Translations under genes and position numbers: made by a program
Shown: positions 25,736-55,913 of the stretch, one piece after another
Layout: every line of letters starts with the position of its first letter
Position numbering within the stretch: position 1 is the stretch's first letter
The notes under the pieces: model-generated
The model's database searches: none
Told to the model about the DNA's origin: nothing
Seen by the model: the letters and a program-made list of their open reading frames with translations, nothing else
Origin: Desulfosporosinus youngiae DSM 17734
GTDB taxonomy: Bacteria; Bacillota; Desulfitobacteriia; Desulfitobacteriales; Desulfitobacteriaceae
Assembly (NCBI RefSeq): GCF_000244895.1
Contig: NZ_CM001441.1
Coordinates: 3,244,226 to 3,308,225 of the forward strand
DNA: 64,000 nt
Direction: 5' to 3'

Positions 25736-25857
25736 AGACCCCAAAAACGCTTGGTGTCACTGATTTACGACACCTTACTCATAACTCTCAATTTATCCGC
25801 AAGAAGCGCTATAAACTCAGAGTTGGTAGGTTTTTGTCGCTCTATGTTCATCGAATA
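25736..25857. repeat. attL (122-bp direct repeat of the spo0A 3' end)
   Basis: Identical to 55792-55913. It contains the last 31 codons of spo0A including the stop (25765-25857) plus 29 bases downstream, and remains attached to the original chromosomal sequence beyond spo0A. Confidence 0.95.
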
Positions 25858-25865
25858 AAACCTAG

Positions 25866-25905
25866 TGATATCAACGGTTTCAGACTTTCTGCAAACACTC
25901 TATTC
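25866..25905. repeat. Candidate integrase arm sites, left end
   Basis: Contains TGATATCAAC (25866-25875) and TCTGCAAACACTC (25888-25900). Each is the exact reverse complement of a segment at the other end of the element (55704-55713 and 55681-55693). In the circular form they would flank the core as inverted pairs. Confidence 0.6.
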
Positions 25906-26000
25906 ATTTTAGTTTATTGACCTTTTTGTGAAAATTAGTCAATATATATACATATTTTATGCCATTATTTAGGGGAAGTCAATTAATCAATATAGAAACA

Positions 26001-26033
26001 AAAAGCCCCAAGCAATTTAATGCCTAGGGCTTT
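26001..26033 (-). terminator. Terminator at the end of the prophage late operon
   Basis: GCCC-tag-GCA and TGC-ttg-GGGC pair around a short loop, followed on the minus strand by TTTTTG. It lies 25 bases past the small membrane protein gene. Confidence 0.65.
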
Positions 26034-26057
26034 CATTTACGATATCCTAACTCTCTT

Positions 26058-26432
26058 TTATTTAAAGATCAAATCCGAACAACCTATAAATAAGACCATT
26101 CCTAGGAAACCTAATAAAGTGAATACAGTATTTTTCACGTCATACCACTCTTGATCTTTGACCCTCACAATCAGTAGCAGTAAAAAAAATGGAATGAAAA
26201 ATTTAAGCGTATACACAAGCATAATACTGTTGTTAAGGTGAGAAGCAATCACTATTACGACTTGATAAAATATGTATCCTGCTATACCTGATACTCCTGT
26301 AATCACATCAATAATTTCTTTACTTCTAAAATAATATAGTATGTAAAACAGACTAACGATGATTGGCAATAGGCACCATACTGTAAAAGCATATTTTATC
26401 AAGTAACCACACTCCTCACTGGCTTTGTACAT
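26058..26432 (-). CDS. Small membrane protein at the prophage end
   Basis: Unrecognised 124-residue protein with about four hydrophobic spans (AFTVWCLLPIIVSLFYILYY, ITGVSGIAGYIFYQVVIVIA, LKFFIPFFLLLLIV and FTLLGFLGMVLFIG). GAGGAG lies nine bases before an in-frame TTG at 26402, a better start than the ATG at 26432. It occupies the place where holins usually sit, downstream of tail genes, but has no lysin partner, and its spans and length could equally suit a cargo membrane protein. Confidence 0.6.
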   Translation of the reverse strand: MYKASEECGYLIKYAFTVWCLLPIIVSLFYILYYFRSKEIIDVITGVSGIAGYIFYQVVIVIASHLNNSIMLVYTLKFFIPFFLLLLIVRVKDQEWYDVKNTVFTLLGFLGMVLFIGCSDLIFK

Positions 26433-26550
26433 ATTTATGGTGGATTATGTAACTTTACAACTTGATTAAAGAATATTTTTTATAATACCTTTTCTAATCA
26501 ATAATAATTGTAAAATAATAAAAGGCTAGGATTTTACTCCTAGCCCAATG

Positions 26551-28599
26551 CTACTTAACTCCAACCTTCTTTAAATTAGTTATTATACTACCGAATACAT
26601 AGCCTGCTGCCTTATCCATTTCTTTCTTCGTTAATCCATTACCGCCACTCACATTAAAAGTGATTGAATTATTAAATACTGCTGGCATTCCTGCACTAGA
26701 TGACAATGTTGTCTTATTCGCCGGATTAAAAGGATTATATTGTGCTGGAATTATTGCCTCGCCCTGGTGAATTAAAGCTATCTGATCATTCGGTACAAAT
26801 GGAGTACCTACGGCATAAGCAGGAATATCATCCTTACTATCATCTTTAGAGGACATTTTACTTTGTGCTGAATCCCAAATGGACAATTTATCTTTAATCC
26901 AGCTTATTGTGTCATTGAACCATGATTTCAAATTACTCCAGACAGATTTAATCCCATCCCAAAAAGATGAAAATAATTGATACCCCGAAGAATAAAAACT
27001 ACTCGCAAACCCTTTGATTGATGAAACAGCATTCGTTATTGATGAACCAAGCCAACTAGTTATTGAAGACCACACCGATTTAAAAGCATCAAACAGTGCA
27101 TTCATTATTGAATAGCCAAGACTTAGGAAATTTCCTATTGCCGTAGTTAATAAGGATTTGATAATATCAAAACTTGTCTTAAATATAGCTTTAATCAGTT
27201 CAAAGACCTTTTGGGTGAGATTTGTTAATTCTGTCCCAAAAGTAGACCAATCACCTTTTAACAATGCTGTGGCAACATTAAATACTCCAATAATAATATC
27301 AAAGGCAGTCTTTATGATTAATGTGATTCCATCAAATATCACTTGATTTTCAGTGTAAAAGTTCTGCAAAATGGATATCAATACCCCGATTAACTCACCA
27401 ACAGATATTAATACTTCTCCAACAAAATTCAAAGCATTACCAATAGTTCCTTTTATTTGTGGCATATTTGTCTGAACCCAAGTTGCTAATTCGTTGATAA
27501 TGGGCAGAACCTTTTGACCCATAGGTATTAAAATGTCTGTCTCTAAACCTCTCTTGATTCCAGTCAATGCTTCCCCAAAAGAATCATATTTGACACTGTT
27601 AATCTGACCAAGTGCATCAATATCAAGTTTTGCATAATCCCCAATGTCTGCAAGTGCTTTAATCCCATTTATCCCCAAATCCTCAAATTGAGTTCCAAAA
27701 AGTGCTACACCTGCTGCGTTTTGTGCGAGTGGATCATTCAATTGCCCTAATCGACTAATGACATCTTGAAAAGCTTTTTGTGCTCCATCTCCACCTTGAG
27801 CGAAGGTATTAAACATCTCATCAGCATTTAGACCTAGTGCCTCGAATCCTTGAGCACTTGCATCAGACATGTCTTTAGATCTGATACCAAATTCCTTAAC
27901 GGCATCCCCTACTTTGTCCATCTGAAAGGCTCCACTTTTTGCCCCTTGGATTAGAGTGTCAGTAAACTCCTCAGCACTAATTCCAAGTTGTGAAAAATGT
28001 GGAGCATATTCTTTAAGCACTTCAGTCAAATCACCATTTTTATTTGCTCCCTGTTGTGCTCCTTGTGCCATCAAATTATATGCTTGTTCAGCAGTTATCC
28101 CGAAATTGGCCATTAAAGCATTAACTGTGTCAATACTTTCACCCACATCCATGTCAAAAGTATCTCTCATCATTAATGCTGTCTGAGTTGTACTTTCTAG
28201 CTCTTTACCAGTTAAACCCATAGTTTGTTTAACTGTTGCCATACTTTGAGCAATATCATCAAAACTTTCACCAAAATTATTAGCGTAAATATTGGTTAAT
28301 GATTCTTCTAATTGCTTTGTTTCTTCTGCTGTTGCTCCTGTTTGCATGGACAATTTATTTAATGATTGTTGAAGCTCATCAGCACTCTTGATCCCTTTTA
28401 AACCCATACCTACAAGTGCAACCCCAACCGTAGCAATGCCGCCAATAACTGCACCCTTCAAAAAGGAAGTAAAACCACCAAATTTACCTTCTAACTTATC
28501 CACATTGCCCTCAGCACTTGACATTCCAGAACTGAACCCTTCAGAATTCAATTCCAAATTATATTGATATGTAGCTAAATCTATAGTTGTAGAAGCCAT
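26551..28599 (-). CDS. Phage tail tape measure protein
   Basis: Sets tail length and occupies the tail tube. 682 residues. The N-terminal region is helical with a hydrophobic stretch (GAVIGGIATVGVALVGMGLK), followed by the TP901-type core (LQQSLNKLSMQTGATAEETK, LTGKELESTTQTALMMRDTF), long amphipathic repeats with Trp-Ser pairs, and a GNGLTKKEMD-type C terminus. Start at 28599 because AGGAGGTGACAATAAAC precedes it. At ~1.5 angstroms per residue the tail would be about 100 nm. It is the last recognisable structural gene of the element. Confidence 0.9.
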   Translation of the reverse strand: MASTTIDLATYQYNLELNSEGFSSGMSSAEGNVDKLEGKFGGFTSFLKGAVIGGIATVGVALVGMGLKGIKSADELQQSLNKLSMQTGATAEETKQLEESLTNIYANNFGESFDDIAQSMATVKQTMGLTGKELESTTQTALMMRDTFDMDVGESIDTVNALMANFGITAEQAYNLMAQGAQQGANKNGDLTEVLKEYAPHFSQLGISAEEFTDTLIQGAKSGAFQMDKVGDAVKEFGIRSKDMSDASAQGFEALGLNADEMFNTFAQGGDGAQKAFQDVISRLGQLNDPLAQNAAGVALFGTQFEDLGINGIKALADIGDYAKLDIDALGQINSVKYDSFGEALTGIKRGLETDILIPMGQKVLPIINELATWVQTNMPQIKGTIGNALNFVGEVLISVGELIGVLISILQNFYTENQVIFDGITLIIKTAFDIIIGVFNVATALLKGDWSTFGTELTNLTQKVFELIKAIFKTSFDIIKSLLTTAIGNFLSLGYSIMNALFDAFKSVWSSITSWLGSSITNAVSSIKGFASSFYSSGYQLFSSFWDGIKSVWSNLKSWFNDTISWIKDKLSIWDSAQSKMSSKDDSKDDIPAYAVGTPFVPNDQIALIHQGEAIIPAQYNPFNPANKTTLSSSAGMPAVFNNSITFNVSGGNGLTKKEMDKAAGYVFGSIITNLKKVGVK

Positions 28600-28651
28600 G
28601 TTTATTGTCACCTCCTTTGCAAACAAAAAGGGTTAGTAGGTATAAAACCTA

Positions 28652-29268
28652 TTAACCCTTTTGATAAAATTCTGAATTCCTTAATTTGTTTAAGTCAGGT
28701 TCAGTCTGATACAATCTCTTTGATTTTGCTAATAATTCTCTTCCTTCAGGCGTTGATTTCAATTCAAGTAACCGAAAATGCTTTAACAATGAAAGAAAAA
28801 CCGCATAAGGCAGTTTCTTAATCTCAAAATAGCTCATTTTACTTTGTGACATTAGATAGGTGATATTCTCCATCATTTCAAAGTCATCAGAACCCCCAGA
28901 ACCACCACTTACTCCCTGTTGGTAGATTCTAGGGAAAGAGAGTTTGGGTCTTTCACAATATCCCGGATAAACAATATTGTTTGTTCAATGATAATTTTCA
29001 TATGTCGAATATCGTTGAATCTTTCCTTAATTAAATCCATTGTAATATCCTTAGATTTATCCAGCGCAAGAATATCAATCATCATTTGTCTGCCCAAATT
29101 GATTGAATCCTCTTCTTTAGTAACTTTTTTGATCCGTTCTTGGTATGCATTTATTTTAAGCATGAAGTCTAAATCCACTTCCCCTGGAATCACATACTCC
29201 TCACCTTTTATATCTCTGAAAATTAAGGGATCTCTAACCAATACGGATAAATCAATTATTTTTGCCAT
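28652..29268 (-). CDS. Tail assembly chaperone, frameshift product (gpGT-like)
   Basis: Predicted -1 frameshift fusion of the 28909-29268 frame with the frame ending at 28652. Slippage at CCCAAAC (28942-28948) after codon 109 gives a ~205-residue product. The joined frame is open through QQGVSGGSGGSDD and continues into a helical T-domain. This is the conserved G/GT chaperone arrangement found just upstream of tape measure genes in long-tailed phages. The protein coats the tape measure during tail assembly. Confidence 0.85.
28909..29268 (-). CDS. Tail assembly chaperone, short form (gpG-like)
   Basis: 119-residue unshifted product. Helical, with IDLSVLVRDPLIFRDIKGEE at the N terminus. It lies between the major tail protein and the tape measure gene, the expected place for the G chaperone. 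It terminates 33 codons... that is, only ten codons after the slippery heptamer, so both forms share nearly all of this domain. Confidence 0.8.
   Translation of the reverse strand: MAKIIDLSVLVRDPLIFRDIKGEEYVIPGEVDLDFMLKINAYQERIKKVTKEEDSINLGRQMMIDILALDKSKDITMDLIKERFNDIRHMKIIIEQTILFIRDIVKDPNSLSLESTNRE
28942..28948 (-). other. Programmed -1 ribosomal frameshift site
   Basis: Minus-strand heptamer CCCAAAC read as GAC CCA AAC in the zero frame, the X XXY YYZ form used for tail chaperone frameshifts. The -1 frame is open across it and joins to the 28652 stop. Confidence 0.85.
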
Positions 29269-29289
29269 TATTTATATCCACTCCTTAAA

Positions 29290-29844
29290 TTAGACTTCAG
29301 TAAATGTTTCAATAATTTCTACCAATGTGCCATCATTCGTTGCTAATGCGGAAAACTGATAGCCAATTGACGATGGTTTCTCACTGTCAAAAGTGAGTTT
29401 AAATCCATTAGTGTTTTGGGCCTTCATGATGTTGACGGTAATTGTACCGCTCCCATCCTTTTTGGTATGGATAAACCTTAGATAATTTGTCGGCAATAGA
29501 CCTTTCCCGCCAATTCTTACGGTTTTTGTACCTGAAGTCCCATCAGTTGTAACCGTTGCTGGAGCTAATAATGCTAAATTATCTACTAGCCAAGTCAAAA
29601 CTCCGCAATCAAACGTTACCTCTTCCTTAGTGATAAATCTCATGACCGTCCCTCTATTTGCACTTTGGATCTCCTGGATGGAATTCTTGTACTCTAAAGT
29701 GGCACCGCTCTCAATAGCACCAACATTTTTAAGTGCTGCTTCAATAGCTGTTTCTAACGCCGTTTCTGGATTAGCCACTGTACCAAGATATAATTCTCCA
29801 CTCCCTAAGATAATTGGGTCTGATTCTTGATAATCTAAAGCCAT
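29290..29844 (-). CDS. Major tail tube protein
   Basis: 184-residue beta-rich protein, which forms stacked rings of the tail tube. Patterns such as EFTFDCGVLTWLVDNLALL-like segments (here VTFDCGVLTWLVDN) and GFKLTFDSEKPSSIGYQFSA resemble tail tube proteins of Gram-positive phages. Its position between the tail completion gene and the chaperone gene supports this. A myovirus-type tube is not excluded, but no sheath gene is present. Confidence 0.8.
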   Translation of the reverse strand: MALDYQESDPIILGSGELYLGTVANPETALETAIEAALKNVGAIESGATLEYKNSIQEIQSANRGTVMRFITKEEVTFDCGVLTWLVDNLALLAPATVTTDGTSGTKTVRIGGKGLLPTNYLRFIHTKKDGSGTITVNIMKAQNTNGFKLTFDSEKPSSIGYQFSALATNDGTLVEIIETFTEV

Positions 29845-29864
29845 TTATAAAACCTTCTTTCTTT

Positions 29865-30242
29865 TTAAATTTGGCATAAAAAATAGACAACTACCTCATA
29901 GTTGCCTGTGCTTTCATTCTTGACCATTCCACCACCATTAAGTAACTTTGTGCTCCTAATAACGGTCTCAGTATCTTTTATAATCTTTTTCCCTCTTGGG
30001 TCATCAAGTAAATTGATTAACCTACTCTGGATTGCAATAAGCTTGCTCAAATCTTTACTAATCAACCTGAATTCCACTTGATAGTCCTTGATAAACCCAC
30101 CTGTAAGAGTTTTATAGAAGTAAATTATGTAGGTATTATTCTCCATTTCTTTGGGTTTTTCTACCAAGTAAATTGCATTTTGATTATCTAGCAAAGTTTT
30201 TAACTGCAAATCATTGAGCAGATAATTTCTTATTATTTTCAT
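29865..30242 (-). CDS. Tail terminator / completion protein
   Basis: 125-residue protein with the helix-strand pattern of tail terminator proteins (NYLLNDLQLKTLLDNQNAIY, then KDYQVEFRLISKDLSKL). It starts four bases inside the preceding HK97 gp10-like gene. Position before the tail tube gene fits the protein that caps the tail and joins it to the head. Family assignment rests on order and general pattern. Confidence 0.65.
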   Translation of the reverse strand: MKIIRNYLLNDLQLKTLLDNQNAIYLVEKPKEMENNTYIIYFYKTLTGGFIKDYQVEFRLISKDLSKLIAIQSRLINLLDDPRGKKIIKDTETVIRSTKLLNGGGMVKNESTGNYEVVVYFLCQI

Positions 30243-30541
30243 GACTGGAAAACCTCTTCAATTCTATTTATAATCACCTGTTGGTTTTGATCAACTGCCG
30301 GCTCAAGGTAAGGAGTATGTCTTTCTGCCCAATAAGCATATTCAACATTAGAACCCACTGCTCCAAGGGTCTTGTTTTCCTCATCTTTAACCTTGTGAGT
30401 AATAGACCTCTTTAATGTACCAGTATCCACTGGACAAAGTTGTTTAGCATCAGCTTCAACTATTAAACATACTTCTTCAACCGCTCTTTTCCGTCTTGCC
30501 CTAATATCTTGAATTGCTCTTTGGAAAGGACTATTCATCAT
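30239..30541 (-). CDS. HK97 gp10-like head-tail protein
   Basis: 100 residues with the family pattern VEEVCLIVEADAKQLCPVDTG followed by TLKRSI and YAYWAERHT...PYLEPA, as in HK97 gp10 / minor tail-joining proteins. It overlaps both neighbours slightly, showing tight operon packing. Confidence 0.85.
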   Translation of the reverse strand: MMNSPFQRAIQDIRARRKRAVEEVCLIVEADAKQLCPVDTGTLKRSITHKVKDEENKTLGAVGSNVEYAYWAERHTPYLEPAVDQNQQVIINRIEEVFQS

Positions 30542-30836
30542 CCAACATCACATCCATATAGTCATCCCACGGAATAATCTTTTTGATCATGTATTTTTGA
30601 CCACTTCCATCTCTAACAATTTTTCCGTTTTTAATATCCGAATCCAAATCACAAAAAACCCTTTTTGTAACTTGCTCTTGATACCCATATTCACGATAGA
30701 GCAATTCACTTGAATACGGCTGAATATCGCAAGGAAATGACTTTAAAACTTGTTCTTGACCTTCATGATAAATTCCATAATCATCAAGTTCCCCTGGGTT
30801 AACGTTTAGTAAATAAAGAGTATGATTATAAAACAA
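30531..30836 (-). CDS. Head closure (head-tail joining) protein
   Basis: 101-residue beta-rich protein. It begins FYNHTLYLLNVNPGELDDYG and contains YQEQVTKRVFCD, a pattern seen in head-tail stopper proteins. It lies between the connector and gp10-like genes, where the stopper is expected, and abuts its upstream neighbour with no gap. Confidence 0.7.
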   Translation of the reverse strand: MFYNHTLYLLNVNPGELDDYGIYHEGQEQVLKSFPCDIQPYSSELLYREYGYQEQVTKRVFCDLDSDIKNGKIVRDGSGQKYMIKKIIPWDDYMDVMLDDE

Positions 30837-31136
30837 TTACCCCACCACCTTAATACGGGGTAAGGGTAAACAAGATTTAATCGATTCAGGGATACCATCT
30901 ATAATTGTTTTACTTCTACTGCCTTGGGTTTGCTGAATAATGCCTTGCGCATCTTTATTTTGATAAAAGAAAATCGCCAAATCTACAACAATACCATCGA
31001 GAGATTCAGGAATTTCCTCTATGTAACTGTAAGCCTTAATGGCAATTTGACTCTTATTCAAGTAATGATTTAAGATACTATCTTTGGAAGTATCAAGCAG
31101 GTCAATACTCAGTAATTCTTTCATAAGCTCAAGCAT
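30837..31136 (-). CDS. Head-tail connector (gp6/gp15-like) protein
   Basis: 99-residue mostly helical protein (LLSIDLLDTSKDSILNHYLN, IVVDLAIFFYQNKDAQGI, then SRSKTIIDGIPESIKSCLP), the pattern of phage head-tail adaptors that sit beneath the portal. It follows the capsid gene and a small unknown gene. Confidence 0.75.
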   Translation of the reverse strand: MLELMKELLSIDLLDTSKDSILNHYLNKSQIAIKAYSYIEEIPESLDGIVVDLAIFFYQNKDAQGIIQQTQGSRSKTIIDGIPESIKSCLPLPRIKVVG

Positions 31137-35208: not shown

Positions 35209-36933
35209 CTAAAATAGTTTTTTGATGTCCATAAACTCAAGTTTGTGGACAACTTCAATATCATCAATTCGATTACAAAACTCGCTAAGACAATCCACAA
35301 AATCATCGTGAAGACTTGTTTCCTGACCTGAAAAATCCATAAGCTGTTCAAGGGCTTCTGGCTGAACCCTTTTAGCACAAAAAATAACCCTGCCATTATT
35401 GACAGAGTCGGTGATTGTGGAGATTTTTTGATTTTTATTTTTCCGCTGCATCTCGTTGATGATTTCAATATTTCTATAAGACAAATCGGGATCATTCATT
35501 ATCTCTTTTTCGATTTTTCCAGCATCAACACCGTTGAACGTGTTCTTTTCTATATAAATATGAGTTATATTTGGAAATTCTTTAAGCAAATCTATGACGT
35601 GCTTAATATACCTGTCAAATTCCGTTCTGGCATCTATTTTTAATAGTTCGCCTTTACGAACATATTTGAAGTCATTGTCAGACAGAGAACCAACTATAAA
35701 AGCAAAGTAATCTGAACGCCTTGTATCTGTCGAAGCACAATCTACACAAAGCATTGTCTTTTTGAATATGTTAGCTTCAATCTCTTCCTTTGGTTGGACT
35801 TGATTAGATTTGAACCATTTCTCGCCTATCTTACTTGCATCATTCATTTTTTCCTGCATGAAACTATTGCGATTTTGCCAATATTTTAAAGCAAGATCAT
35901 AATAACGATCCCACTTGTCTTCCCACAAAATTGGAAAATCCATTTCCTCTTTATGCTCAAGATAAAATTGATAACCTTCTTCAATACCATTTTCTCTTTT
36001 CAAATCAAAGGTAACTTTCTTACATTCGCCCCATAAACCTTCATCAAGTAATTCTTCAATGGTTTTCCCTGGATCAAGCTTAATAGCACTTCTAAGGAGT
36101 GTAATATAGTCCTTCATGTTTATTAAACGAGAAATTAGACAACTGGAATGGAGAATTGTACCTATCGAGATTATCTTTGTTGGGGCTTTGATGAGTTTTC
36201 CCTCTCGAAATACCGCTGTATCTCCCAATTCCTCAACTTCATCGTTCCAATCTTTCCACTTTTTTTCCCTCGATTGAGGGGTCAAAACATCGTTTTTATC
36301 TTGGAAATCGTCCGCGATAAAGGTAGTTGGCCTCACTCCATTCCAGTTAATGCCTCGCTGTGATGATCCAGATGATACCGCTTTAATACAGGTTTTATTA
36401 GTTAATTCTATTTCCTGTTTATTTACAGTGAATTTCTTAGCATTAATTAGATTACCAAAGGTTTTGACGATATATGGATTTTCTTCTAATTGGGTTCTTA
36501 CGCTACCAATGAATTGATAAGCGTCATCTTCCTTTTTGGCTCCGATTACTGTGAATTTGGATATTTTAAAGCAATGCAAATAGAGTGTTAAAGCTAAATC
36601 ACATGTGGTTGTTTTGGAACATCCTCTTGGAACGACAATATTAGCTTTATGTATCTCATTCTTAATGAACATTCTTTCTAGTAAGTCCCAGATATCATAA
36701 TGAACTTGACTTAACTCCCTACGATCATTGTCTGGTTTAACTCTAAAAATGTCCTGAAGATAGTACAAACAGAAAAAAGATAGACTCCGTTTTGCCGTGG
36801 CAAATGCAAGACTATCCTTACCGAATAGATTATTTGAGTGTTTAATCATCAATTCTTTAGCTTTTTCTTGACCATAGAATTGAGATAAATATTTGAAGAG
36901 GAGCCTTTGATCCTCTAAATCATTATCATATAT
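35209..36933 (-). CDS. Terminase large subunit, apparent ATA start
   Basis: Packaging motor ATPase and nuclease. Walker A-like VVPRGCSKTTT, Walker B TFIADDFQD and a nuclease Asp in CVDCASTDT are visible. The first ATG in frame (36852) has no ribosome site. The frame is open upstream, and a near-perfect AAAGGAGGTG lies nine bases before an ATA codon at 36933, giving 574 residues with a sensible helical N terminus (NDLEDQRLLFKYLSQFYGQE). I therefore propose initiation at ATA, or a start codon damaged by mutation. It is followed by the portal gene. Confidence 0.85.
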   Translation of the reverse strand: MYDNDLEDQRLLFKYLSQFYGQEKAKELMIKHSNNLFGKDSLAFATAKRSLSFFCLYYLQDIFRVKPDNDRRELSQVHYDIWDLLERMFIKNEIHKANIVVPRGCSKTTTCDLALTLYLHCFKISKFTVIGAKKEDDAYQFIGSVRTQLEENPYIVKTFGNLINAKKFTVNKQEIELTNKTCIKAVSSGSSQRGINWNGVRPTTFIADDFQDKNDVLTPQSREKKWKDWNDEVEELGDTAVFREGKLIKAPTKIISIGTILHSSCLISRLINMKDYITLLRSAIKLDPGKTIEELLDEGLWGECKKVTFDLKRENGIEEGYQFYLEHKEEMDFPILWEDKWDRYYDLALKYWQNRNSFMQEKMNDASKIGEKWFKSNQVQPKEEIEANIFKKTMLCVDCASTDTRRSDYFAFIVGSLSDNDFKYVRKGELLKIDARTEFDRYIKHVIDLLKEFPNITHIYIEKNTFNGVDAGKIEKEIMNDPDLSYRNIEIINEMQRKNKNQKISTITDSVNNGRVIFCAKRVQPEALEQLMDFSGQETSLHDDFVDCLSEFCNRIDDIEVVHKLEFMDIKKLF

Positions 36934-37099
36934 TAGAAATCACCTCCTTTGGAGTTGAAAATTTTATAAAAAACTGTAGCGATTACTGTCGCTCCTCCTC
37001 CAGGCTCGGGGATAGAAACCCACCCCCTGGTCAAGGGTAATAAGCAACAATGATCATGAAAAATATGAAAAAGCAGACCCCATATCAATTGCATTTAAC

Positions 37100-37128
37100 T
37101 TGACTTATACGCAATAAAAACATATAAT
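37100..37128 (+). promoter_or_regulatory. Sigma-A promoter of the internal recombinase gene
   Basis: TTGACT (37100-37105), 17-base spacer, TATAAT (37123-37128). The spacer contains TTATACGCAAT (37105-37115), whose exact inverse ATTGCGTATAA recurs at 37185-37195 just before the ribosome site. The pair looks like an operator or recombinase-binding inverted repeat. Confidence 0.75.
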
Positions 37129-37216
37129 TTGCTTATAAATAAATCCTTTTCAGTACATATTCAATGACTAAAGCAATACTCTTGATTGCGTATAACTAAT
37201 GAAGGAGTGCTGACCC

Positions 37217-38068
37217 ATGTCACAAACCTTGAATGATTTTCTTAACTCACCCAAAGTTTTAAAGAAATCTCCTAATACCCGCAAAGCATATGAAAGAGAT
37301 TTATTCCTATTCGAACAATATATCAACAAGTATAACGTATCCCTTGACCGCCTTAATGATATGGTAGTCCAAACATACCTTGATCAAATGAAAACTAAGG
37401 ATGGTCAACCTTCTTCCCCGGCCACTAAGAACAGAACTTTGGCTAGTATTGCTACATTTTGTCATTGGTCAAAACAACTTGAAGCCGTACAAGAGATTGA
37501 CATCCCTAAGATTCCCCATATCTCTAAACAACCAAGTAAAGGTTTATGTAAAGATGAAGTAACTTCTCTTCGACTCAAAGTTGCCAATGACCATAATCCT
37601 AATAAACTGAGAAATCAAGCAATCATTGACCTACTTATCTATTCTGGCTTTAGGGTTAGCGAATTAGTTTCCCTTGATAGAGATGACATTAAATATCACA
37701 AAGGTATCTATACCATTACTGTTTATGAAACCAAAAACAATGAAGTCAAGAAGGCTTATCTCGACTCCAAAAAATTCAAGTACATTAAGAAGTATCTTGA
37801 ATCCCGTACCGATAATGAGGAAGCCCTATTTATATCCGGCAGGAATCAAAGAATATCTATCCGCATGGTTCAAACGATCTTAAATAAATATGGCATAAAT
37901 CCTCACCTGCTCCGGCATACTTTTTGCTCAATCCTTGCCAGGGATAAAGTAGATCCTTTTACCATTGCTCAATTAGCTGGGCATCGTGACCTTAACACAA
38001 CTCGCCGCTATGCCAATCCTAATTCAAGTGAGATGGCTGAAATGGTATCCAAAGCATTTAACTTTTAA
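37217..38068 (+). CDS. Tyrosine recombinase (XerC/D type), internal
   Basis: 283-residue recombinase with N-terminal SAM-like domain (TRKAYERDLFLFEQYINKYN) and catalytic domain. Active-site residues are visible: Arg in YSGFRVSELVSL, His/Arg in HLLRHTF, His in LAGHRDLNTT and Tyr in RRYANPN. It follows GAAGGAG and has its own strong promoter. It lies between terL and terS on the opposite strand, an odd place, and its last four bases overlap the terS end. It is not next to an att site, so resolution or a second mobile unit is more likely than prophage integration. Confidence 0.9.
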   Translation: MSQTLNDFLNSPKVLKKSPNTRKAYERDLFLFEQYINKYNVSLDRLNDMVVQTYLDQMKTKDGQPSSPATKNRTLASIATFCHWSKQLEAVQEIDIPKIPHISKQPSKGLCKDEVTSLRLKVANDHNPNKLRNQAIIDLLIYSGFRVSELVSLDRDDIKYHKGIYTITVYETKNNEVKKAYLDSKKFKYIKKYLESRTDNEEALFISGRNQRISIRMVQTILNKYGINPHLLRHTFCSILARDKVDPFTIAQLAGHRDLNTTRRYANPNSSEMAEMVSKAFNF

Positions 38069-38499
38069 CGAACAATGCGCAACGATGATTCTTCCTCTTC
38101 CATAAACTTATCAATATTTTCTAGGACATCAACTTGATTGGTGTCTTCTTTGTTGTCGGATACTTCTAGCTTGGCAGTATTTTTACCATCCATCTTCTCG
38201 ACCATAAACTGGTTAGCTGCTAAACATGTTCGACGGTCTGTCGTATCATTACAAAGCTTATCAATGTTCTCCAGATATCTCTTGTAACGTCCCTTAATAA
38301 AGGCTAATCCCTGGTCTTTTATTTCAGCTCTACGGGAATCCAACTCAGCAATTATAATAGGATCATTCATCCAAACATAATAAGTTGCTCTTTTAATGCC
38401 GATCTCATTTTGAATATCAACTCTATCACAACCTAATAGAACCATTGTTACAAATCGTTCGATATTTTCAGGAGTTTTAAATCTATCTCCTTGTGCCAT
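38065..38499 (-). CDS. Terminase small subunit-like protein
   Basis: 144-residue DNA-recognition protein. A helix-turn-helix (VDIQNEIGIKRATYYVWM) and middle helices (GRYKRYLENIDKLCNDTTDR) match phBC6A51-type terminase small subunits. It should choose the packaging site. It is separated from terL by the oppositely oriented recombinase. The ATG follows GGAGGTGATAAA. Confidence 0.8.
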   Translation of the reverse strand: MAQGDRFKTPENIERFVTMVLLGCDRVDIQNEIGIKRATYYVWMNDPIIIAELDSRRAEIKDQGLAFIKGRYKRYLENIDKLCNDTTDRRTCLAANQFMVEKMDGKNTAKLEVSDNKEDTNQVDVLENIDKFMEEEESSLRIVR

Positions 38500-41340: not shown

Positions 41341-41919
41341 TTAATTAATATCGTAACAAATTCGACCATCTTCTGAATGACCATATTCAACTTCAATTAA
41401 GTCACCATCTTTACTTAAAACATAATCCTGCTTAATATCACTGGATTTCTTATACTTATCTTCATCTTCTTCACTCTTGATAAAGTCCTTATTCCTTAAA
41501 GATAAATATAATTCTTCCTCATTGGACAAAGCAAACACATTAAAATTCAACGGTTGTTTATTCGCACAATCACTAGATTTATGGTCAATCTCAAAGTCAG
41601 CATTGAGACTTTTTAAATAATTGCTGACCAAATAAACAATATTGTCCTTGATACTGGGGACATTATAAAGTTCATGCCATGCTGTAAATATCTGATCTAA
41701 CTCTTCATACTTCAATTCCTTTTCATCACATAGTTTGATAATTTCAAAGGCAAAGTTCCCTTCACCATATTTATTCCAATCATTTTGTAATCCTTGATTA
41801 TTATGAGTTCCTTTATTTAATTGCCGGATATGATCCTTCCAGCGCCTTTCAATATCATTACTTCTTCCTATGTAAACCTTATTATTTATATTGTTAGTAA
41901 TCTGGTAAACCCCAATCAT
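41341..41919 (-). CDS. GIY-YIG homing-type endonuclease
   Basis: 192 residues. The N-terminal GIY-YIG nuclease motif is visible as GVYQITNNINNKVYIGRSND, with Arg in ERRWKDHI and Glu in the downstream helix. The C-terminal half is not a recognised DNA-binding domain. Free-standing GIY-YIG nucleases in phages promote their own spread or exclude rivals. It lies between early genes and the region disrupted by IS21. Confidence 0.85.
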   Translation of the reverse strand: MIGVYQITNNINNKVYIGRSNDIERRWKDHIRQLNKGTHNNQGLQNDWNKYGEGNFAFEIIKLCDEKELKYEELDQIFTAWHELYNVPSIKDNIVYLVSNYLKSLNADFEIDHKSSDCANKQPLNFNVFALSNEEELYLSLRNKDFIKSEEDEDKYKKSSDIKQDYVLSKDGDLIEVEYGHSEDGRICYDIN

Positions 41920-42538: not shown

Positions 42539-43975
42539 ATGCTTAGAATGGTCGACAAAGAGTATATCAGAAAGAAACATTTTTTGGAAGGATGGTCAAT
42601 CCGAGAACTCAGTAGACAACTGAAGATTTCCAGGCAAACCGTAAGGAAAATGCTAAAGGATGGTGAAATACCGAAGTACCATCGAAAAAAGCCTAAACCC
42701 AGTCCGGTCATGGATCCTTATCGAGACGTCATAGAAAACATCTTAGAAATGGATACAAATGCTCCACCAAAGCAGCGGCATACCTCAGCTCGTATTTATG
42801 AACGACTTCATGATGAATATGGATTCAAAGGCGGAGAATCAACGGTCCGACGCTACGTGCGCAGTTTAAAAGATGTAAAGAATGAGTGTTTTCTTTTGCT
42901 CGAAGCCGCACCAGGCGAACAAATGCAGATCGATTTCGGGGAAGCCCAAATCTATTTAAAAAATAAGCTTGTGAAAGTTTTGTTATTCTGTATGCGCTTA
43001 AAGCACAGCAGCGTACCGTTTGTTATCGCTTTCCCAACCCAACGTCTTGAAGCTTTTCTTGAAGGCCATAATCGTGCCTTCGCATATTTTGGAGGTGTTT
43101 GTAAAGAAGGCTTGTATGACAATGCCTCTACTCAGGTCGTTAAAATCCTTGAAGGTCCCGAACGAGAAGAACACACTTGGTTTTCCAGTCTGAGGGCTCA
43201 CTATCTCTTTAACAGCTTATTTGCCCGACCTGGTCGTGGAAACGAAAAGGGCAGCGTTGAATCTCTTGTTAAATATGTACGTAAACGCGCTTTAGTTCCA
43301 GTTCCATCGTTTCAGACATGGGATGAATTGAATGCTCATCTGCTTTCTTGGTGCCAAAAAGAGAAAGAGAAGCATATGGATCAATGGCTTGAAGAACAAA
43401 AAGCTCTGCGTCCGCTTCCCGTCACCTCCTTCTCCGCTGCACGGCCAAAACCCGTTAAAGTGGATTCTTATGCTTTAGTTACGGTCGATCGTAACAAGTA
43501 TTCCGTTCCATGCCAGTATACTGGCCAAGTGCTTCTAGCCAAAGCGTATGTGGATCGTGTAGACATCATCCATCTTAGCCAAATTGTAGCAACACATCCT
43601 CGCTGTTATGCCCGAGGTGAAGCTATCCTTGAAATCTTGCATTACCTACCCGTGCTTCAGCACAAACCTCATGCCGTCACCCATGCTAAAGTGGTGAGGC
43701 AGCTCCCGGCAGTGTTTGGACGTTTACGTGAACGAATGGTCGGGGTCCATAGCCGCGGCTACAAAGACTTTCTTGAAGTTCTGCTTCTGCTGCGTGACTA
43801 TTCCGTTGCCGAACTGACCACAGCGTTGGAATTGCTGGGTGAATCTACGATCACAGCGGATACTATCCGCCAAATAGTATCAGGAGATAATGTTCAACCC
43901 CAAGTCTATTCAGAAGCCATCACGACCATTGATGATGCGACGAAATACGATCAACTTCTAGCGGAGGTGATCTAA
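42539..43975 (+). CDS. istA: IS21 transposase IstA
   Basis: 478-residue DDE transposase. N-terminal helix-turn-helix (SIRELSRQLKISRQTVRKML), integrase core with Asp in MQIDFGEAQ, Asp in GLYDNAST and Glu in GNEKGSVESL, then a C-terminal beta-barrel region (VDRNKYSVPC). It looks intact. Its last base overlaps the istB start, the coupling usual in IS21. Confidence 0.95.
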   Translation: MLRMVDKEYIRKKHFLEGWSIRELSRQLKISRQTVRKMLKDGEIPKYHRKKPKPSPVMDPYRDVIENILEMDTNAPPKQRHTSARIYERLHDEYGFKGGESTVRRYVRSLKDVKNECFLLLEAAPGEQMQIDFGEAQIYLKNKLVKVLLFCMRLKHSSVPFVIAFPTQRLEAFLEGHNRAFAYFGGVCKEGLYDNASTQVVKILEGPEREEHTWFSSLRAHYLFNSLFARPGRGNEKGSVESLVKYVRKRALVPVPSFQTWDELNAHLLSWCQKEKEKHMDQWLEEQKALRPLPVTSFSAARPKPVKVDSYALVTVDRNKYSVPCQYTGQVLLAKAYVDRVDIIHLSQIVATHPRCYARGEAILEILHYLPVLQHKPHAVTHAKVVRQLPAVFGRLRERMVGVHSRGYKDFLEVLLLLRDYSVAELTTALELLGESTITADTIRQIVSGDNVQPQVYSEAITTIDDATKYDQLLAEVI

Positions 43976-44736
43976 TGGATGCCTCTGCCATTATTGAAGC
44001 GCGGATAGAGCTGGCCTGTGGGCAACTACGGTTGCCGGGACTTGCTCAATACTATCGAGACATTGTTCGCGATGCTCTTGAACGGAATTCAGATCACTTA
44101 AGCTTCTTGGCAGCTTGCTTGGAATATGAGGTTGCCCGAAAACAAGAGCAAAAACAATTAGCCTTACTTAGGCAGGCCAAATTTCCGGTCCTTAAAACAC
44201 TGCAAGAATTTCAATTTACAAAGATCCCTAAACTGCCAAAAATGAAGGTAGAACAGCTTGCCGGGGGAGATTTTGTCGGTCACCACGAAAACGTTCTTTG
44301 CATCGGAAAATCTGGAACTGGTAAAAGCCACATAGCCATTGCTCTTGGGATAGAGGTTATGCGTCAGGGGTATCGGGTGCGTTTTACACCGGTTATGCAA
44401 CTCATCCAGGAGTTGCAGCAAGCGGAATCGGAATACCGTCTTCCCCGTTATCTGAAAACCTGGAACAAATATGATGTCGTGATTCTTGATGAACTTGGGT
44501 ATATCCCTTTGGGAGAAGGCGGCAAGCTTCTCTTCCAGTTTATTTCTCAGCGTTATGAACGAAGCAGCCTCATTATTACCTCTAATTTGGAGTTTTCCCG
44601 CTGGATCGAAGTGTTTGGAGATCCCGCTTTAACCACCGCACTATTGGATCGACTGACCCACCATTCTCACATCCTTGTGTTTGATGGCGAATCACACCGA
44701 TTCCGTGAGCGCTTAAGCCGCTCAGAGGAGGTGTGA
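43975..44736 (+). CDS. istB: IS21 helper ATPase IstB
   Basis: 253-residue AAA+ ATPase related to DnaC that helps IstA choose targets. Walker A is GKSGTGKSH (~residue 107), Walker B VVILDELGYI, sensor ITSNLEF. The frame is intact. Confidence 0.95.
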   Translation: MDASAIIEARIELACGQLRLPGLAQYYRDIVRDALERNSDHLSFLAACLEYEVARKQEQKQLALLRQAKFPVLKTLQEFQFTKIPKLPKMKVEQLAGGDFVGHHENVLCIGKSGTGKSHIAIALGIEVMRQGYRVRFTPVMQLIQELQQAESEYRLPRYLKTWNKYDVVILDELGYIPLGEGGKLLFQFISQRYERSSLIITSNLEFSRWIEVFGDPALTTALLDRLTHHSHILVFDGESHRFRERLSRSEEV

Positions 44737-46429: not shown

Positions 46430-46990
46430 TTAGTTTTTGATAAATGGAATTTTAGGAGTTTCATAACTTGGTAATGTATTAACAATTTTTACATTTTCTA
46501 ATATCGAGGAAATATCTAATTTTATATCCTTATCTTTAAGGAGATTAGTTAAATGCTCTGGTAACGAGGGTGTATTCTTTAATACATTCAACTTATCTAT
46601 ATCAGTTTCACTTACTCCAAGGTCTTTTAGCTGATTAACTGATAAATTGAACACTTTAATGTCATCCGGGTCAATTACTTCCCAGTCTTCAGCCATTATA
46701 TCTTCGTTCGTGAAATTATAAGTAGGTTTATTGAATAAATTATTACTCCATAATACAAATTGATTGCTTTCCATCTTGATCATTTTGCCTACCAATGCTT
46801 TTCTTGTTAATATTTCACCAATTTTCAGATTTGCTAACGCTTGACTAAAATTTATATATCTTGATTCCCCTCCAGATTGCTCATTTATTATATTTTCATT
46901 TGGCTCAGTCTTAATTGTGTTTTGAGTCTCCATTTCCATTTCTGGGGTTATCAGGATACCGTTTTCAAAATTTTGTTCATTTATTTCCAT
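46430..46990 (-). CDS. Phage protein with a Tad2/DUF2829-like region
   Basis: 186 residues. The middle part (~residues 47-108) reads INFSQALANLKIGEILTRKA, later FVLWSNNLFNKPTYN and EDIMAEDWEVID. The pattern F..AL..LK.G...R...DI.AEDW is that of DUF2829, the family of Thoeris anti-defence protein Tad2, which sequesters immune signal nucleotides. The C-terminal ~75 residues are a helical extension (LKDLGVSETDIDKLNVLKNT) not typical of the family. Assignment is by pattern only. Confidence 0.5.
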   Translation of the reverse strand: MEINEQNFENGILITPEMEMETQNTIKTEPNENIINEQSGGESRYINFSQALANLKIGEILTRKALVGKMIKMESNQFVLWSNNLFNKPTYNFTNEDIMAEDWEVIDPDDIKVFNLSVNQLKDLGVSETDIDKLNVLKNTPSLPEHLTNLLKDKDIKLDISSILENVKIVNTLPSYETPKIPFIKN

Positions 46991-50186: not shown

Positions 50187-50964
50187 TTATGCTATTTGTT
50201 CTTGAACACTTACCACTAAACCCAGTGACTCCAATTTTTTGATCGAATTTTTAATCAAACTATCTTTTTTACGTTCATCAAAATAATTGTAGCCTAGATC
50301 CACATATTCTTGTTTTCGCGTTAACAAGATATGTACAAGAGACAAGATTGTATGTCCTACAGCTATCGAAGCCTTATTTTTTCCACGTCGGGCTGCTATC
50401 CGATGATATTGTGCCGATAAGTAGTTATTTTTTTTACGAGCAGCCGCTTTTGCTGCCTCGGTAAGGGCGCTTCGAAGCTTCTTATTTCCTTTACGCGTCT
50501 TTGTGGACTTTTTTTTCCTGCGCTTTCATCATGACCTGGAGTCATCCCTGCCCACGAACATAAGTGTCCGGGTGTAGGAAATCGTGACATATCTGTACCA
50601 ACTTCAGCAATAATTTGTTCAGCAGTTCTTTTTCCAACTCCGGGTATAGAATCCAATAACTTCAGTTCTTCCGCAAAAGGGGTCATACGTTTCTCAATTT
50701 CTTCGTCCAATTTACTAATTAGTTCATTGAGGTAATCGATATGAGCTAATTGCTTCTCAAGCATGAATAATTGATGGGCTCCAAGTAATCCTTCTAGCGC
50801 AAGTTTCAAATCTTCCTTTTTATCCTTTAGTTTCTTTAGAGCAAAATCCGCTAAAACAGAAGTGTCTTCCTCTCCTTTAATCATAGCTTCCAACATGTTT
50901 CGCCCAGATACACCCAACACATTTGAAGCCACAGAGGATAGTTTTATGTTCCCCCCCTCTAATA
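50187..50964 (-). pseudogene. Partial, frameshifted IS110 transposase copy
   Basis: Corresponds to the last ~260 codons of the intact gene at 51146-52366. One T is missing from the run in GTGGACTTTTTTTTCCTG, eight instead of nine. This shifts the frame after SAGKK, so the product would end in unrelated residues at 50396. It also lacks the N-terminal catalytic residues. It is non-functional, and its similarity shows a recent duplication. Confidence 0.88.
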
Positions 50965-51145
50965 CTTTCTGCCCTGAAAATTCAAAAAGTTGGACTAAGT
51001 GCACGTTTTACGAAAATGACAATACTAAAATAAACCCTGGGTTATCATTACAAAAAAATAATTAGTGTAAGCACAATGGTTAAGACGTTAGAAACCAAGT
51101 TTACCCGGGCTATTTTTCGATCTGTGTAAATCGTTTTGAATACAT

Positions 51146-52366
51146 TTATGCTATTTGTTCTTGAACACTTACCACTAAACCCAGTGACTCCAATTTTTTG
51201 ATCGAATTTTTAATCAAACTATCTTTTTTACGTTCATCAAAATAATTGTAGCCTAGATCCACATATTCTTGTTTTCGCGTTAACAAGATATGTACAAGAG
51301 ACAAGATTGTATGTCCTACAGCTATCGAAGCCTTATTTTTTCCACGTCGGGCTGCTATCCGATGATATTGTGCCGATAAGTAGTTATTTTTTTTACGAGC
51401 AGCCGCTTTTGCTGCCTCGGTAAGGGCGCTTCGAAGCTTCTTATTTCCTTTACGCGTCTTTGTGGACTTTTTTTTTCCTGCGCTTTCATCATGACCTGGA
51501 GTCATCCCTGCCCACGAACATAAGTGTCCGGGTGTAGGAAATCGTGACATATCTGTACCAACTTCAGCAATAATTTGTTCAGCAGTTCTTTTTCCAACTC
51601 CGGGTATAGAATCCAATAACTTCAGTTCTTCCGCAAAAGGGGTCATACGTTTCTCAATTTCTTCGTCCAATTTACTAATTAGTTCATTGAGGTAATCGAT
51701 ATGAGCTAATTGCTTCTCAAGCATGAATAATTGATGGGCTCCAAGTAATCCTTCTAGCGCAAGTTTCAAATCTTCCTTTTTATCCTTTAGTTTCTTTAGA
51801 GCAAAATCCGCTAAAACAGAAGTGTCTTCCTCTCCTTTAATCATAGCTTCCAACATGTTTCGCCCAGATACACCCAACACATTTGAAGCCACAGAGGATA
51901 GTTTTATGTTCCCCCCCTCTAATACTTTCTGTAGGCGATTCACTTCTCGCGTTCTTTCTTCAACGATGCTTCGCCGATATCGAACGACCTCTTTTAATTC
52001 TCTTTGATCCCGGTTCGGAATAAAACTTCCTTGGACCAAACCATGACGCAGTAAACGTGCAATCCACTCGGCATCTTTAACATCCGTCTTTCGTCCCGGC
52101 ACAGTTTTAATATGCTGGGCATTAACTACCATCGGTTGTAGATCCTCTGTCTCTAAGAGGTTATAGATCGGTTTCCAGTAATCACCTGTACTCTCCATCG
52201 CGACATGGGAGCATCGGTTGTCTTTTACCCAATCAACTAGTTCGATTAGGTTTCGAGTCATTGTTGAAAATGTATGAATCTCCTTTCCTTTGGGGGTAAT
52301 GATGCAGGCTGTAATACTTTTTTTATGCACATCCAGTCCGCAACATCGTTCATGCAATACTTCCAT
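51146..52366 (-). CDS. IS110-family transposase (DEDD recombinase)
   Basis: 406 residues, intact. The N-terminal RuvC-like domain has Asp in GLDVHKKS, Glu in AMESTGDYW, and Asp residues in KTDVKDAEWIARLL. The C-terminal Transposase_20 domain has IPGVGKRTAEQIIAEVG and a Ser in LCSWAGMTPG, the probable nucleophile. IS110 enzymes use a bridge RNA encoded beside the gene; the long 5' non-coding region here fits. Tandem neighbours show past rearrangement. Confidence 0.95.
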   Translation of the reverse strand: MEVLHERCCGLDVHKKSITACIITPKGKEIHTFSTMTRNLIELVDWVKDNRCSHVAMESTGDYWKPIYNLLETEDLQPMVVNAQHIKTVPGRKTDVKDAEWIARLLRHGLVQGSFIPNRDQRELKEVVRYRRSIVEERTREVNRLQKVLEGGNIKLSSVASNVLGVSGRNMLEAMIKGEEDTSVLADFALKKLKDKKEDLKLALEGLLGAHQLFMLEKQLAHIDYLNELISKLDEEIEKRMTPFAEELKLLDSIPGVGKRTAEQIIAEVGTDMSRFPTPGHLCSWAGMTPGHDESAGKKKSTKTRKGNKKLRSALTEAAKAAARKKNNYLSAQYHRIAARRGKNKASIAVGHTILSLVHILLTRKQEYVDLGYNYFDERKKDSLIKNSIKKLESLGLVVSVQEQIA

Positions 52367-54700: not shown

Positions 54701-55651
54701 TTAATCCAAATCCATTCCATTGAGAGGGCTAAACTTAATATGTTGCTTTTGGATACTTTGGTCATCTAATTGAAGATAAATCTTGGTCACTTCAGGACTA
54801 CTATGCCCCAAAATTCTACCCAGCGTGATCAAGTCTCCCCCATTTAGAAGGTAATACTGGGCAAAGGAAGCTCTTAAACGATGCGGAAATAATTCAACTC
54901 CTAGTTTTTTCCCTATCCGATTCAAAACTTTTTCATAGTTGCATATTGAAAAAAGTGTACCGCGATTAGTAGGAAACAAAAGATCATTGTTCATGTAGCG
55001 GTCTTTGTACCTCATCCACCTTTGAAGATTGTTTTTGAGTTTAGTTGAAAAGAAGACTAATCGCTCTTTTTTGTTTTTTGTGTTCCTAAGTACGATAGTT
55101 TTGTTTTGCAAATTAATGTCATCATCTTTGATACTAAGGCATTCCGTGATCCGGCAACCAGTATCTAGAATTAATATAGTAATCATATAGTTTCTATAGC
55201 CATTAAACTTTGTTTTGTCAAAACAACTGAGAATAGAGATAATTTCTTGTTCTGTCAAGAGAGGTTTGAGCCTTTCAGTACCTTTAAGTAATTTGATCTT
55301 TTCCACTGGGTTTTTATTAAGCTCATCCTCTTCGCTGAGCCAGTTGAAAAATACCTTGATATTCCTTACATAGTTGTTAATAGTATTGACACTAATATCT
55401 TTCCCCTTATCAGTACGATTATATGGGGTATTAACTTTGTACTTGCCTCTATCTTGTAGATACTTAACATAAAGTCGAATATGGGTCTTTTTTACATCTT
55501 CAATCCTTTCGATTTGATTTTCTTCCTTGAGATATAATGCAAATAAGTTAAGCGTCTGTTCGTAGGATTTAATAGTTTTTTTTGACAAGTTTTTACTCGA
55601 ACAGTAGAGCATAAACTCTTCGATACTGGCTTCAAACTGTGTCGATCTCAA
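54701..55651 (-). CDS. int: Prophage integrase (tyrosine recombinase)
   Basis: 316 residues. The N-terminal SAM-like domain (FEASIEEFMLYCSSKNLSKK) is followed by a catalytic domain with Arg in DTGCRITECLSI, Lys in the KNKKERLVFF strand, His/Arg in FPHRLRASFA, His in LGHSSPEVTK and Tyr in KIYLQLDD. I choose TTG 55651 because GGGGGTG lies eight bases upstream; the frame is open back to 55816, five bases from the spo0A stop. It is adjacent to attR and should integrate and excise the element at spo0A. No excisionase gene was found. Confidence 0.93.
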   Translation of the reverse strand: MRSTQFEASIEEFMLYCSSKNLSKKTIKSYEQTLNLFALYLKEENQIERIEDVKKTHIRLYVKYLQDRGKYKVNTPYNRTDKGKDISVNTINNYVRNIKVFFNWLSEEDELNKNPVEKIKLLKGTERLKPLLTEQEIISILSCFDKTKFNGYRNYMITILILDTGCRITECLSIKDDDINLQNKTIVLRNTKNKKERLVFFSTKLKNNLQRWMRYKDRYMNNDLLFPTNRGTLFSICNYEKVLNRIGKKLGVELFPHRLRASFAQYYLLNGGDLITLGRILGHSSPEVTKIYLQLDDQSIQKQHIKFSPLNGMDLD

Positions 55652-55674
55652 AAAGAAACACCCCCATTTTTGTT

Positions 55675-55713
55675 GAATAGGAGTGTTTGCAGACAAGAAA
55701 TATGTTGATATCA
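55675..55713. repeat. Candidate integrase arm sites, right end
   Basis: GAGTGTTTGCAGA (55681-55693) and GTTGATATCA (55704-55713) are exact inverses of segments just inside attL. They overlap the region immediately upstream of the integrase start. Confidence 0.6.
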
Positions 55714-55791
55714 TGTAAACTAGTTTATATGCTTTTTTTGTTAATTTAAGCTTATAAAAAATAGTTTGTTGATATTTTTCATCTTTTATAA

Positions 55792-55913
55792 AGACCCCAA
55801 AAACGCTTGGTGTCACTGATTTACGACACCTTACTCATAACTCTCAATTTATCCGCAAGAAGCGCTATAAACTCAGAGTTGGTAGGTTTTTGTCGCTCTA
55901 TGTTCATCGAATA
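55792..55913. repeat. attR (122-bp direct repeat inside spo0A)
   Basis: Identical to 25736-25857. It supplies the last 31 codons of the present spo0A gene and 29 bases beyond its stop. Confidence 0.95.

Follow-up and report, generated by a model that had tools for sequence, protein, structure and literature searches.

TnpI/irs modules are described as a tyrosine recombinase with an adjacent upstream site, made up of an inverted-repeat core and accessory copies in direct repeat, and in Tn5401 promoters lie within the irs site and are modulated by TnpI (PMC7157771). The dif site of B. subtilis is given as 28 bp in length, its two arms of 11 bp each being separated by 6 bp (PMC5357621). In B83, which exists as a circular plasmid, a XerC/XerD-type recombinase (gp02) is encoded between terS (gp01) and terL (gp04) in an arrangement reported as conserved among four genomes, and the resolving of plasmid multimers was proposed as its function (PMC6669507). 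For plasmid prophages, Xer-type and small serine recombinases have been tabulated, the Xer-type enzymes being believed to resolve phage dimers (PMC8026635). The recombinase gp50 of tyroviruses is encoded in the structural region, and an adjacent 11-6-11 dyad was read as a putative attP (PMC9703825). A terS-terL recombinase with proposed multimer resolution is already known in plasmid prophages; new is that a serine resolvase often takes its place upstream of the terL type found here. Neither TnpI/irs-type phage sites nor a serine/tyrosine swap beside terL was found in the literature searched, which covers little of the subscription journals.

The window (the whole stretch of 64,000 nucleotides that was analysed) is part of the single-contig, 5.66-Mb genome of Desulfosporosinus youngiae DSM 17734 and contains a prophage at about 25736 to 55913; the copy of the recombinase gene under study, INT, is chromosomal. 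At the two ends of the prophage stands an exact direct repeat of 122 bp (25736-25857 and 55792-55913), which extends into the 3' end of spo0A (identified by Pfam), the sporulation master gene at whose 3' end the prophage is attached. The att-linked integrase gene (54701-55816, minus strand; Pfam, PHROG) adjoins this repeat, and INT has no duplicated att core at the prophage ends. A second tyrosine recombinase was found elsewhere in 10 of 12 related records, which agrees with the view taken in a first-pass annotation of this DNA that the role of INT is apart from that of the att-linked integrase. The prophage looks damaged. Its tail module (25736-31136) breaks off behind a 691-aa ORF that resembles part of tape-measure families, IS21-type (42539-44736) and IS110-type (50396-52366) genes lie inside it, and no other transposase types were detected by Pfam among the ORFs tested. 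A GIY-YIG endonuclease gene (41341-41919, minus strand) is located near the packaging genes, and a prophage gene at 46430-46990 (minus strand) is a borderline case of a Tad2-like product (Thoeris anti-defence), its Pfam score of 25 bits equalling the cut-off.

INT (37217-38068, plus strand; ATG start) encodes a TnpI-like or simple Xer-like tyrosine recombinase of 283 aa according to Pfam, alignment and profile scores, and is preceded by a probable ribosome-binding site, GAAGGAGTG (37201-37209, plus strand), read by eye. The ORF is intact and scores 103.7 bits for Phage_integrase and 34.9 bits for Phage_int_SAM_1, both above the Pfam cut-off; an arm-binding domain was not found by Pfam. Assignment to the tyrosine recombinase superfamily follows from PF00589 above cut-off together with R, K, H-x-x-R, H and Y. 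R146, K173, H230, R233, H256 and Y265, which we take to be the catalytic residues, are invariant in an alignment of ten sequences including that of the window. The scores fall far below the NCBIfam cut-offs for XerC (128.4 vs 335.15 bits), XerD (127.4 vs 329.6) and XerA (147.4 vs 220). In comparison with the related locus L013, INT is the most conserved of the three genes (80% identity, vs 69% for terS and 58% for terL), with a dN/dS of 0.088 (dS 1.6); dN/dS of the recombinases was 0.04-0.17 in five pairs, in four of which dS exceeded 1.5, so that these values are saturated and approximate, and two further pairs yielded no estimate.

INT converges with terS (38065-38499, minus strand; PHROG terminase small subunit, 4.5e-11), the two genes overlapping by 4 bp, and on its other side lies terL (35209 to about 36933, minus strand; PHROG terminase large subunit, 1.9e-82). 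The Pfam and PHROG matches thus agree with the first-pass description of a second, intact tyrosine recombinase facing the opposite way between terS and terL. A strong Shine-Dalgarno sequence of terL was observed at 36931-36947 (minus strand), with no in-frame ATG, GTG or TTG nearby, and the probable start is an ATA at 36931-36933, a position where L132, L134, L143 and L147 have ATG and L013, L126, L128 and L136 likewise have ATA; AUA initiation of the terminase gene is possible. A conserved junction element, GGGGTNGG...TATAAAATT (36961-37027, minus strand), recurs between terS and terL in 14 of 40 loci with the window's type of terL (both copies of the window locus counted) and is possibly cos-like, a candidate cos.

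Repeat searches and shuffles identified a 28-bp dyad of 11-6-11 geometry, ATTGCATTTAA-CTTGAC-TTATACGCAAT (37088-37115, plus strand), upstream of INT, which is likely the crossover site of the recombinase. It is composed of a left arm, IR1 (37088-37098), a 6-bp central region (CTTGAC, 37099-37104) in which crossover is predicted from a geometry like that of dif-type sites (PMC5357621), and a right arm, IR2 (37105-37115); the arms match at 9 of 11 positions. An accessory copy in IR1 orientation, DR (ATTGCGTATAA, 37185-37195, plus strand), starts 97 bp from the start of IR1 and lies just 5' of the probable ribosome-binding site. Besides this copy at +97 a weaker arm match (9/11) occurs at +40; no second strong DR was detected at the window's site, and some relatives have one at -13 (the TnpI/irs system of Tn4430 has two). 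The predicted promoter (TTGACT-17-TATAAT, 37100-37128, plus strand), recognised by its match to the consensus (11/12), has its -35 element across the central region of the core. The consensus promoter noted ahead of the recombinase in the first-pass annotation is thus present as a promoter-like site, the best such match, but the region is not enriched in matches of this class (8 vs a shuffle mean of 6.5).

TTATACGCAAT is present exactly at 37105-37115 (plus strand) and 37185-37195 (minus strand), in inverted orientation and 80 bp apart. These copies were the left and right repeats of the first-pass annotation, which saw in them a repeat overlapping the promoter and resembling a recombination site, an idea that is supported; it also treated them as a recombining pair, which is not supported, since the likely core is 37088-37115 and the copy at 37185-37195 stands alone, with no second arm beside it (1/11 match). 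Two matches at no more than one mismatch in 64 kb are unremarkable by themselves (39 of 100 shuffles reach two). The site rises above chance because of the partner arm at 37088-37098 and the conservation of the layout in relatives. The combined score of core and DR was reached by 0 of 200 dinucleotide shuffles of L012, a viral contig identical to the locus.

A single full site was present where complete sequence could be searched. The 5.66-Mb genome has five exact matches to the arm, and only one of them belongs to a full core; the three that lie outside the prophage were considered as attB sites and rejected, since none has a partner arm (agreement at 2, 3 and 5 of 11 positions). Two complete circular relatives lack a second exact arm cluster and carry the exact arm at this locus only, and isolated extra exact copies occur in 3 of 12 related records (G036, G037, G038). 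A dif site of the host, which the core might mimic, was not found with a dif consensus at 3 mismatches.

The layout is kept in relatives down to about 34% identity. Of 50 recombinase loci, counted with near-copies and duplicate contigs but without L010 and L011, 42 gave a combined score for core and DR that fewer than 5% of shuffles reached, when only DRs in IR1 orientation at 60-134 bp were considered. The remaining eight lack a significant site, among them the transposase-linked L030 and L052 as well as L053 (5/100, with an unphased pick). The DR stands at 86-87, 97-99 or 118 bp in 40 of the 42 significant loci, the exceptions being L028 (131) and L033 (100), and at 129 bp in L133. In a search of both orientations, restricted to the best three matches per locus, copies at these distances were all IR1-oriented, and inverse matches (9/11) occurred at other offsets only. 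Arm sequences differ greatly between lineages (e.g., GTGTCGTATAA, ATTGCGTGTAA and CCGTCGTGAAA), so that the geometry is conserved more than the sequence. Accessory copies stand about whole helical turns apart: R was 0.91 at 10.5 bp for 22 chosen lineages, and 0.63, 0.81 and 0.92 at 9.5, 10.0 and 11.0 bp, respectively. Because the lineages share ancestry, the value obtained from the four spacing classes alone (p = 0.0016) is the safer one. L028, L033 and loci with an unusable or mis-picked site were left out of the phasing test, L049 (6/100 shuffles) was kept, and L053 was merged with the identical L032. Plasmids of Niallia and Priestia (9.8-9.9 kb) with family members have dyads of 11/11 and 9/11 and weak accessory copies (8/11).

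An opposite-facing recombinase is flanked by terS and terL at 19 of 52 recombinase loci, duplicates included (L012 equals the window locus, L042 equals L014 and L039 equals L029). Two packaging modules are represented. The window type has a PHROG 38 terL, with L013, L014 and L015 assigned by similarity; the other has a PHROG 2 terL, tested for L016 and assigned by similarity for the others, and comprises L016-L020, L035-L038, L040 and L041 (Bacillus-type phages), L029 (a circular 55-kb record of Anoxybacillus sp. B7M1, labelled plasmid and carrying phage genes) and L009 (Parageobacillus phage JGon-2020a). A Tn3-type transposase gene was found at 9 of the 52 loci, directly downstream and codirectional in four; transposase-linked homologues share the layout of core and DR, and one such recombinase has 52.5% identity with that of the Anoxybacillus phage. 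No TnpA match was detected in the 12.8 kb of L012. With its TnpI/irs-like layout and no linked transposase, INT is therefore expected to work like TnpI/irs and not to be the tnpI of a transposon.

The phage recombinases need three changes on the tree, and a single clade is rejected (p-AU 0.004; 0.030 for the non-window rows); moreover, terS and terL of JGon-2020a and the Anoxybacillus record are 80-81% identical and the recombinases only 56%. Because the clade is rejected and the recombinases diverge more than the terminase genes, the place between terS and terL was probably filled by a recombinase more than once. As the phage recombinases do not form one clade, function could differ between lineages. 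An argument from nearest homologues based on phage Emery (L011) and a Moorella phage (L010) was dropped, since these are only 26-27% identical; the recombinase gene of Emery is codirectional and upstream of a hypothetical gene and the terminase.

The sequence upstream of terL was surveyed in 38 window-type loci, 36 of them with at least 1 kb upstream (L236, the second copy of the window's locus, and L013 excluded). Within 2 kb upstream of terL, a serine resolvase was found in 15 of the 36 loci, an antisense TnpI-like INT in four (the window's own locus, L014, L015 and L133) and a short tyrosine recombinase in five, one locus of these also having a serine resolvase. No recombinase was detected in this interval in 13 loci, so that resolution does not appear essential there. 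In all, 24 recombinase genes occur in 67 kb of this slot, compared with one that the same two models detected in 200 kb of these loci outside the slot; the loci span only about 5 kb on either side, so that distant att integrases are uncounted, and the six loci from which the serine model was built were found by construction. PF00239 was confirmed in all 11 tested of the 15 serine loci, and the resolvase gene is codirectional with terL in 14 of the 15. Among loci without INT, a recognisable, weakly similar terS lies beyond the recombinase in nine only, which places a serine resolvase (L124, L130, L136, L143, L144 and L153) or a short tyrosine recombinase (L135, L137 and L242) between terS and terL. 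Res-like dyads upstream of serine resolvases passed a guided test (at most 3 of 60 shuffles) in 7 of 17 loci, including the near-copies L170 and L177, and failed it in ten; an unguided repeat count beat all shuffles in two of eight loci. Four of ten junction ORFs tested were not resolvases but a DUF4062 protein, an SH3-domain protein, a GIY-YIG protein and a weak PvuRts1I-like endonuclease match.

Comparison of terS-terL spacing, as suggested in the first-pass annotation, shows the insert at the 19 flanked loci and tight linkage in nearly all of the JGon-type pairs examined. Among the best 80 viral-contig matches to the JGon-type terL (59-81% identity; a set that omits Bacillus-type carriers at about 57%), a recognisable terS was present in 71, and 70 of these 71 pairs overlap or nearly touch, with an insert in one (Anoxybacillus). 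Upstream of terS-terL, JGon-type phages carry a serine resolvase in L170, L173, L174, L175, L177 and L185 and a short, 180-aa tyrosine recombinase in L171, L172, L176 and L178-L182; one of each was confirmed by Pfam.

INT and its upstream site are best read, with a probability of roughly 0.7, as a self-contained, self-regulated multimer-resolution system of the TnpI/irs kind and not as a second integrase. Resolution fits best because one recombinase, one core, a phased DR and a promoter within the site occur together, a second exact arm cluster is absent from two complete circular relatives and, among exact arm matches, from the host genome, and some relatives have a plasmid lifestyle. Under this reading, INT would bind both arms of the 28-bp core as well as the DR about a hundred bp downstream. 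Where two copies of the phage genome share one molecule, be it a tandem prophage, a circular dimer or a concatemer, the two sites would pair through their DRs and cores on the same helical face, and recombination by INT between the two 6-bp centres would convert the dimer to monomers, resolution being favoured over inversion. Bound INT is also predicted to repress its own promoter, because the core covers the -35 element, and converging late transcription of terS and terL may quiet INT when packaging needs concatemers. A plasmid state is indicated for some relatives by ParA in JGon-2020a, by the circular 55-kb Anoxybacillus record and by B83; ParA of the searched family was found in JGon-2020a and in none of the other 11 of 12 related records, and a search of four records for StbA/ParM-type proteins was uninformative, its control genomes giving no signal. 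The window prophage is chromosomal and looks damaged, and a plasmid stage is therefore not evident here. As evidence against its interpretation, the first-pass annotation had named the case that many complete phages keep the gene at this position and that its role there is known to be that of a resolvase; the placement is borne out by B83, and the resolvase role described for it is a proposal (PMC6669507).

The most serious competitor takes the terS-terL junction for a passive insertion hotspot and INT for a passenger, perhaps the remnant of a Tn3-type transposon, that persists by chance. The four non-resolvase ORFs among the ten junction ORFs tested, the occurrence of family members in Tn3-type elements and the tight linkage without insert of 70 of 71 JGon-type pairs (from the best 80 terL matches) speak for it, but it is unlikely in view of the richness of the slot in recombinases of two unrelated chemistries (24 in 67 kb vs 1 in 200 kb), the low dN/dS of INT, its conservation above that of the terminase genes (80% vs 58% for terL and 69% for terS between the window and L013) and the lack of a TnpA match within 12.8 kb of L012. 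INT could instead be a mere DNA-binding autoregulator or late-gene regulator in which recombination is vestigial, given that the core overlaps the -35 element, the DR lies just ahead of the ribosome-binding site and the irs of Tn5401 holds promoters modulated by TnpI (PMC7157771). Simple repression, however, needs neither the 6-bp spacing nor helical phasing, the catalytic columns are invariant in ten aligned sequences and dN/dS is low, which makes a purely regulatory function quite improbable.

Slightly harder still to uphold is a second integrase with the 28-bp dyad as attP for another lysogeny site. The prophage sits at spo0A beside its other integrase, of the places where the host genome matches IR2 exactly only that of the prophage itself has a left arm, terS and terL are still together around gene and site in the 19 flanked loci, and Pfam shows no arm-binding domain in INT; all this weighs against the precedents that in tyroviruses an 11-6-11 dyad beside a recombinase was interpreted as a putative attP (PMC9703825) and that simple tyrosine recombinases can integrate phages (PMC8138268). 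Inversion by INT, whether of the stretch from 37105 to 37195 or of other phage DNA, is scarcely credible: apart from the two inverted copies 80 bp apart, which suggested it, the second copy has no partner arm, the phased DRs keep IR1 orientation (both-orientation search, best three per locus) as their distance shifts by about whole helical turns, and two complete circular relatives have no second exact arm cluster. Inversion between the two repeats of the first-pass annotation itself is rejected on the unpaired copy at 37185 and the single arm cluster in the two circular relatives.

If INT acts in multimer resolution, 'extra' phage recombinases usually labelled integrase gain a testable purpose, and the helically spaced sites would form a family of natural resolution sites with differing arm sequences. 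That resolvases of two unrelated chemistries occur beside terL points to selection for resolution; if they keep landing by the packaging genes, phages may be selected to control multimers where packaging starts, which would tie plasmid-style maintenance to DNA packaging. A broader and more doubtful proposal, offered tentatively, is that many temperate phages of Firmicutes have, at the junction by terL (perhaps by cos), a slot dedicated to resolvases, in which serine resolvase/res and antisense TnpI/irs modules are interchangeable; the resolvase would oppose concatemer packaging and keep phage DNA monomeric until late terS/terL transcription silences it, a switch between circular and packaged fate.

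Among known systems, TnpI/irs of Tn4430, Tn5401 and TnBth4 shares with the locus the recombinase, the adjacent upstream core and, as predicted here, a promoter in the site; of the accessory direct repeats, two in Tn4430, the locus has one strong copy. The core of INT is an inverted repeat centred on a spacer upstream of the gene, as in that system; INT differs in being phage-borne, antisense between terS and terL, without a linked Tn3-family transposase and with one strong DR, and the kinship covered by the comparisons is that with other transposase-linked recombinases. B83 gp02 and its relatives have the same placement between terS and terL (PMC6669507), but the B83-like recombinases (L016-L020) are only 34-37% identical to INT and belong to a different packaging module, and the window prophage is chromosomal. 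The 28-bp 11-6-11 geometry is shared with dif of B. subtilis (PMC5357621) and the proposed purpose with dimer resolution by Cre of P1 (PMC8138268), whereas INT differs from Xer/dif and Cre/lox in its scores below the Xer cut-offs, in its use of one recombinase with an accessory site and in its own arm sequence. In tyroviruses the site lies downstream of the gp50 gene, which stands between neck and tape-measure genes (PMC9703825). Small serine resolvases of related phages lie in or near the same slot, just upstream of terL, with terS beyond them in six loci and res-like dyads in some; they belong to an unrelated protein family and are codirectional with terL in 14 of 15 loci, whereas INT is antisense.
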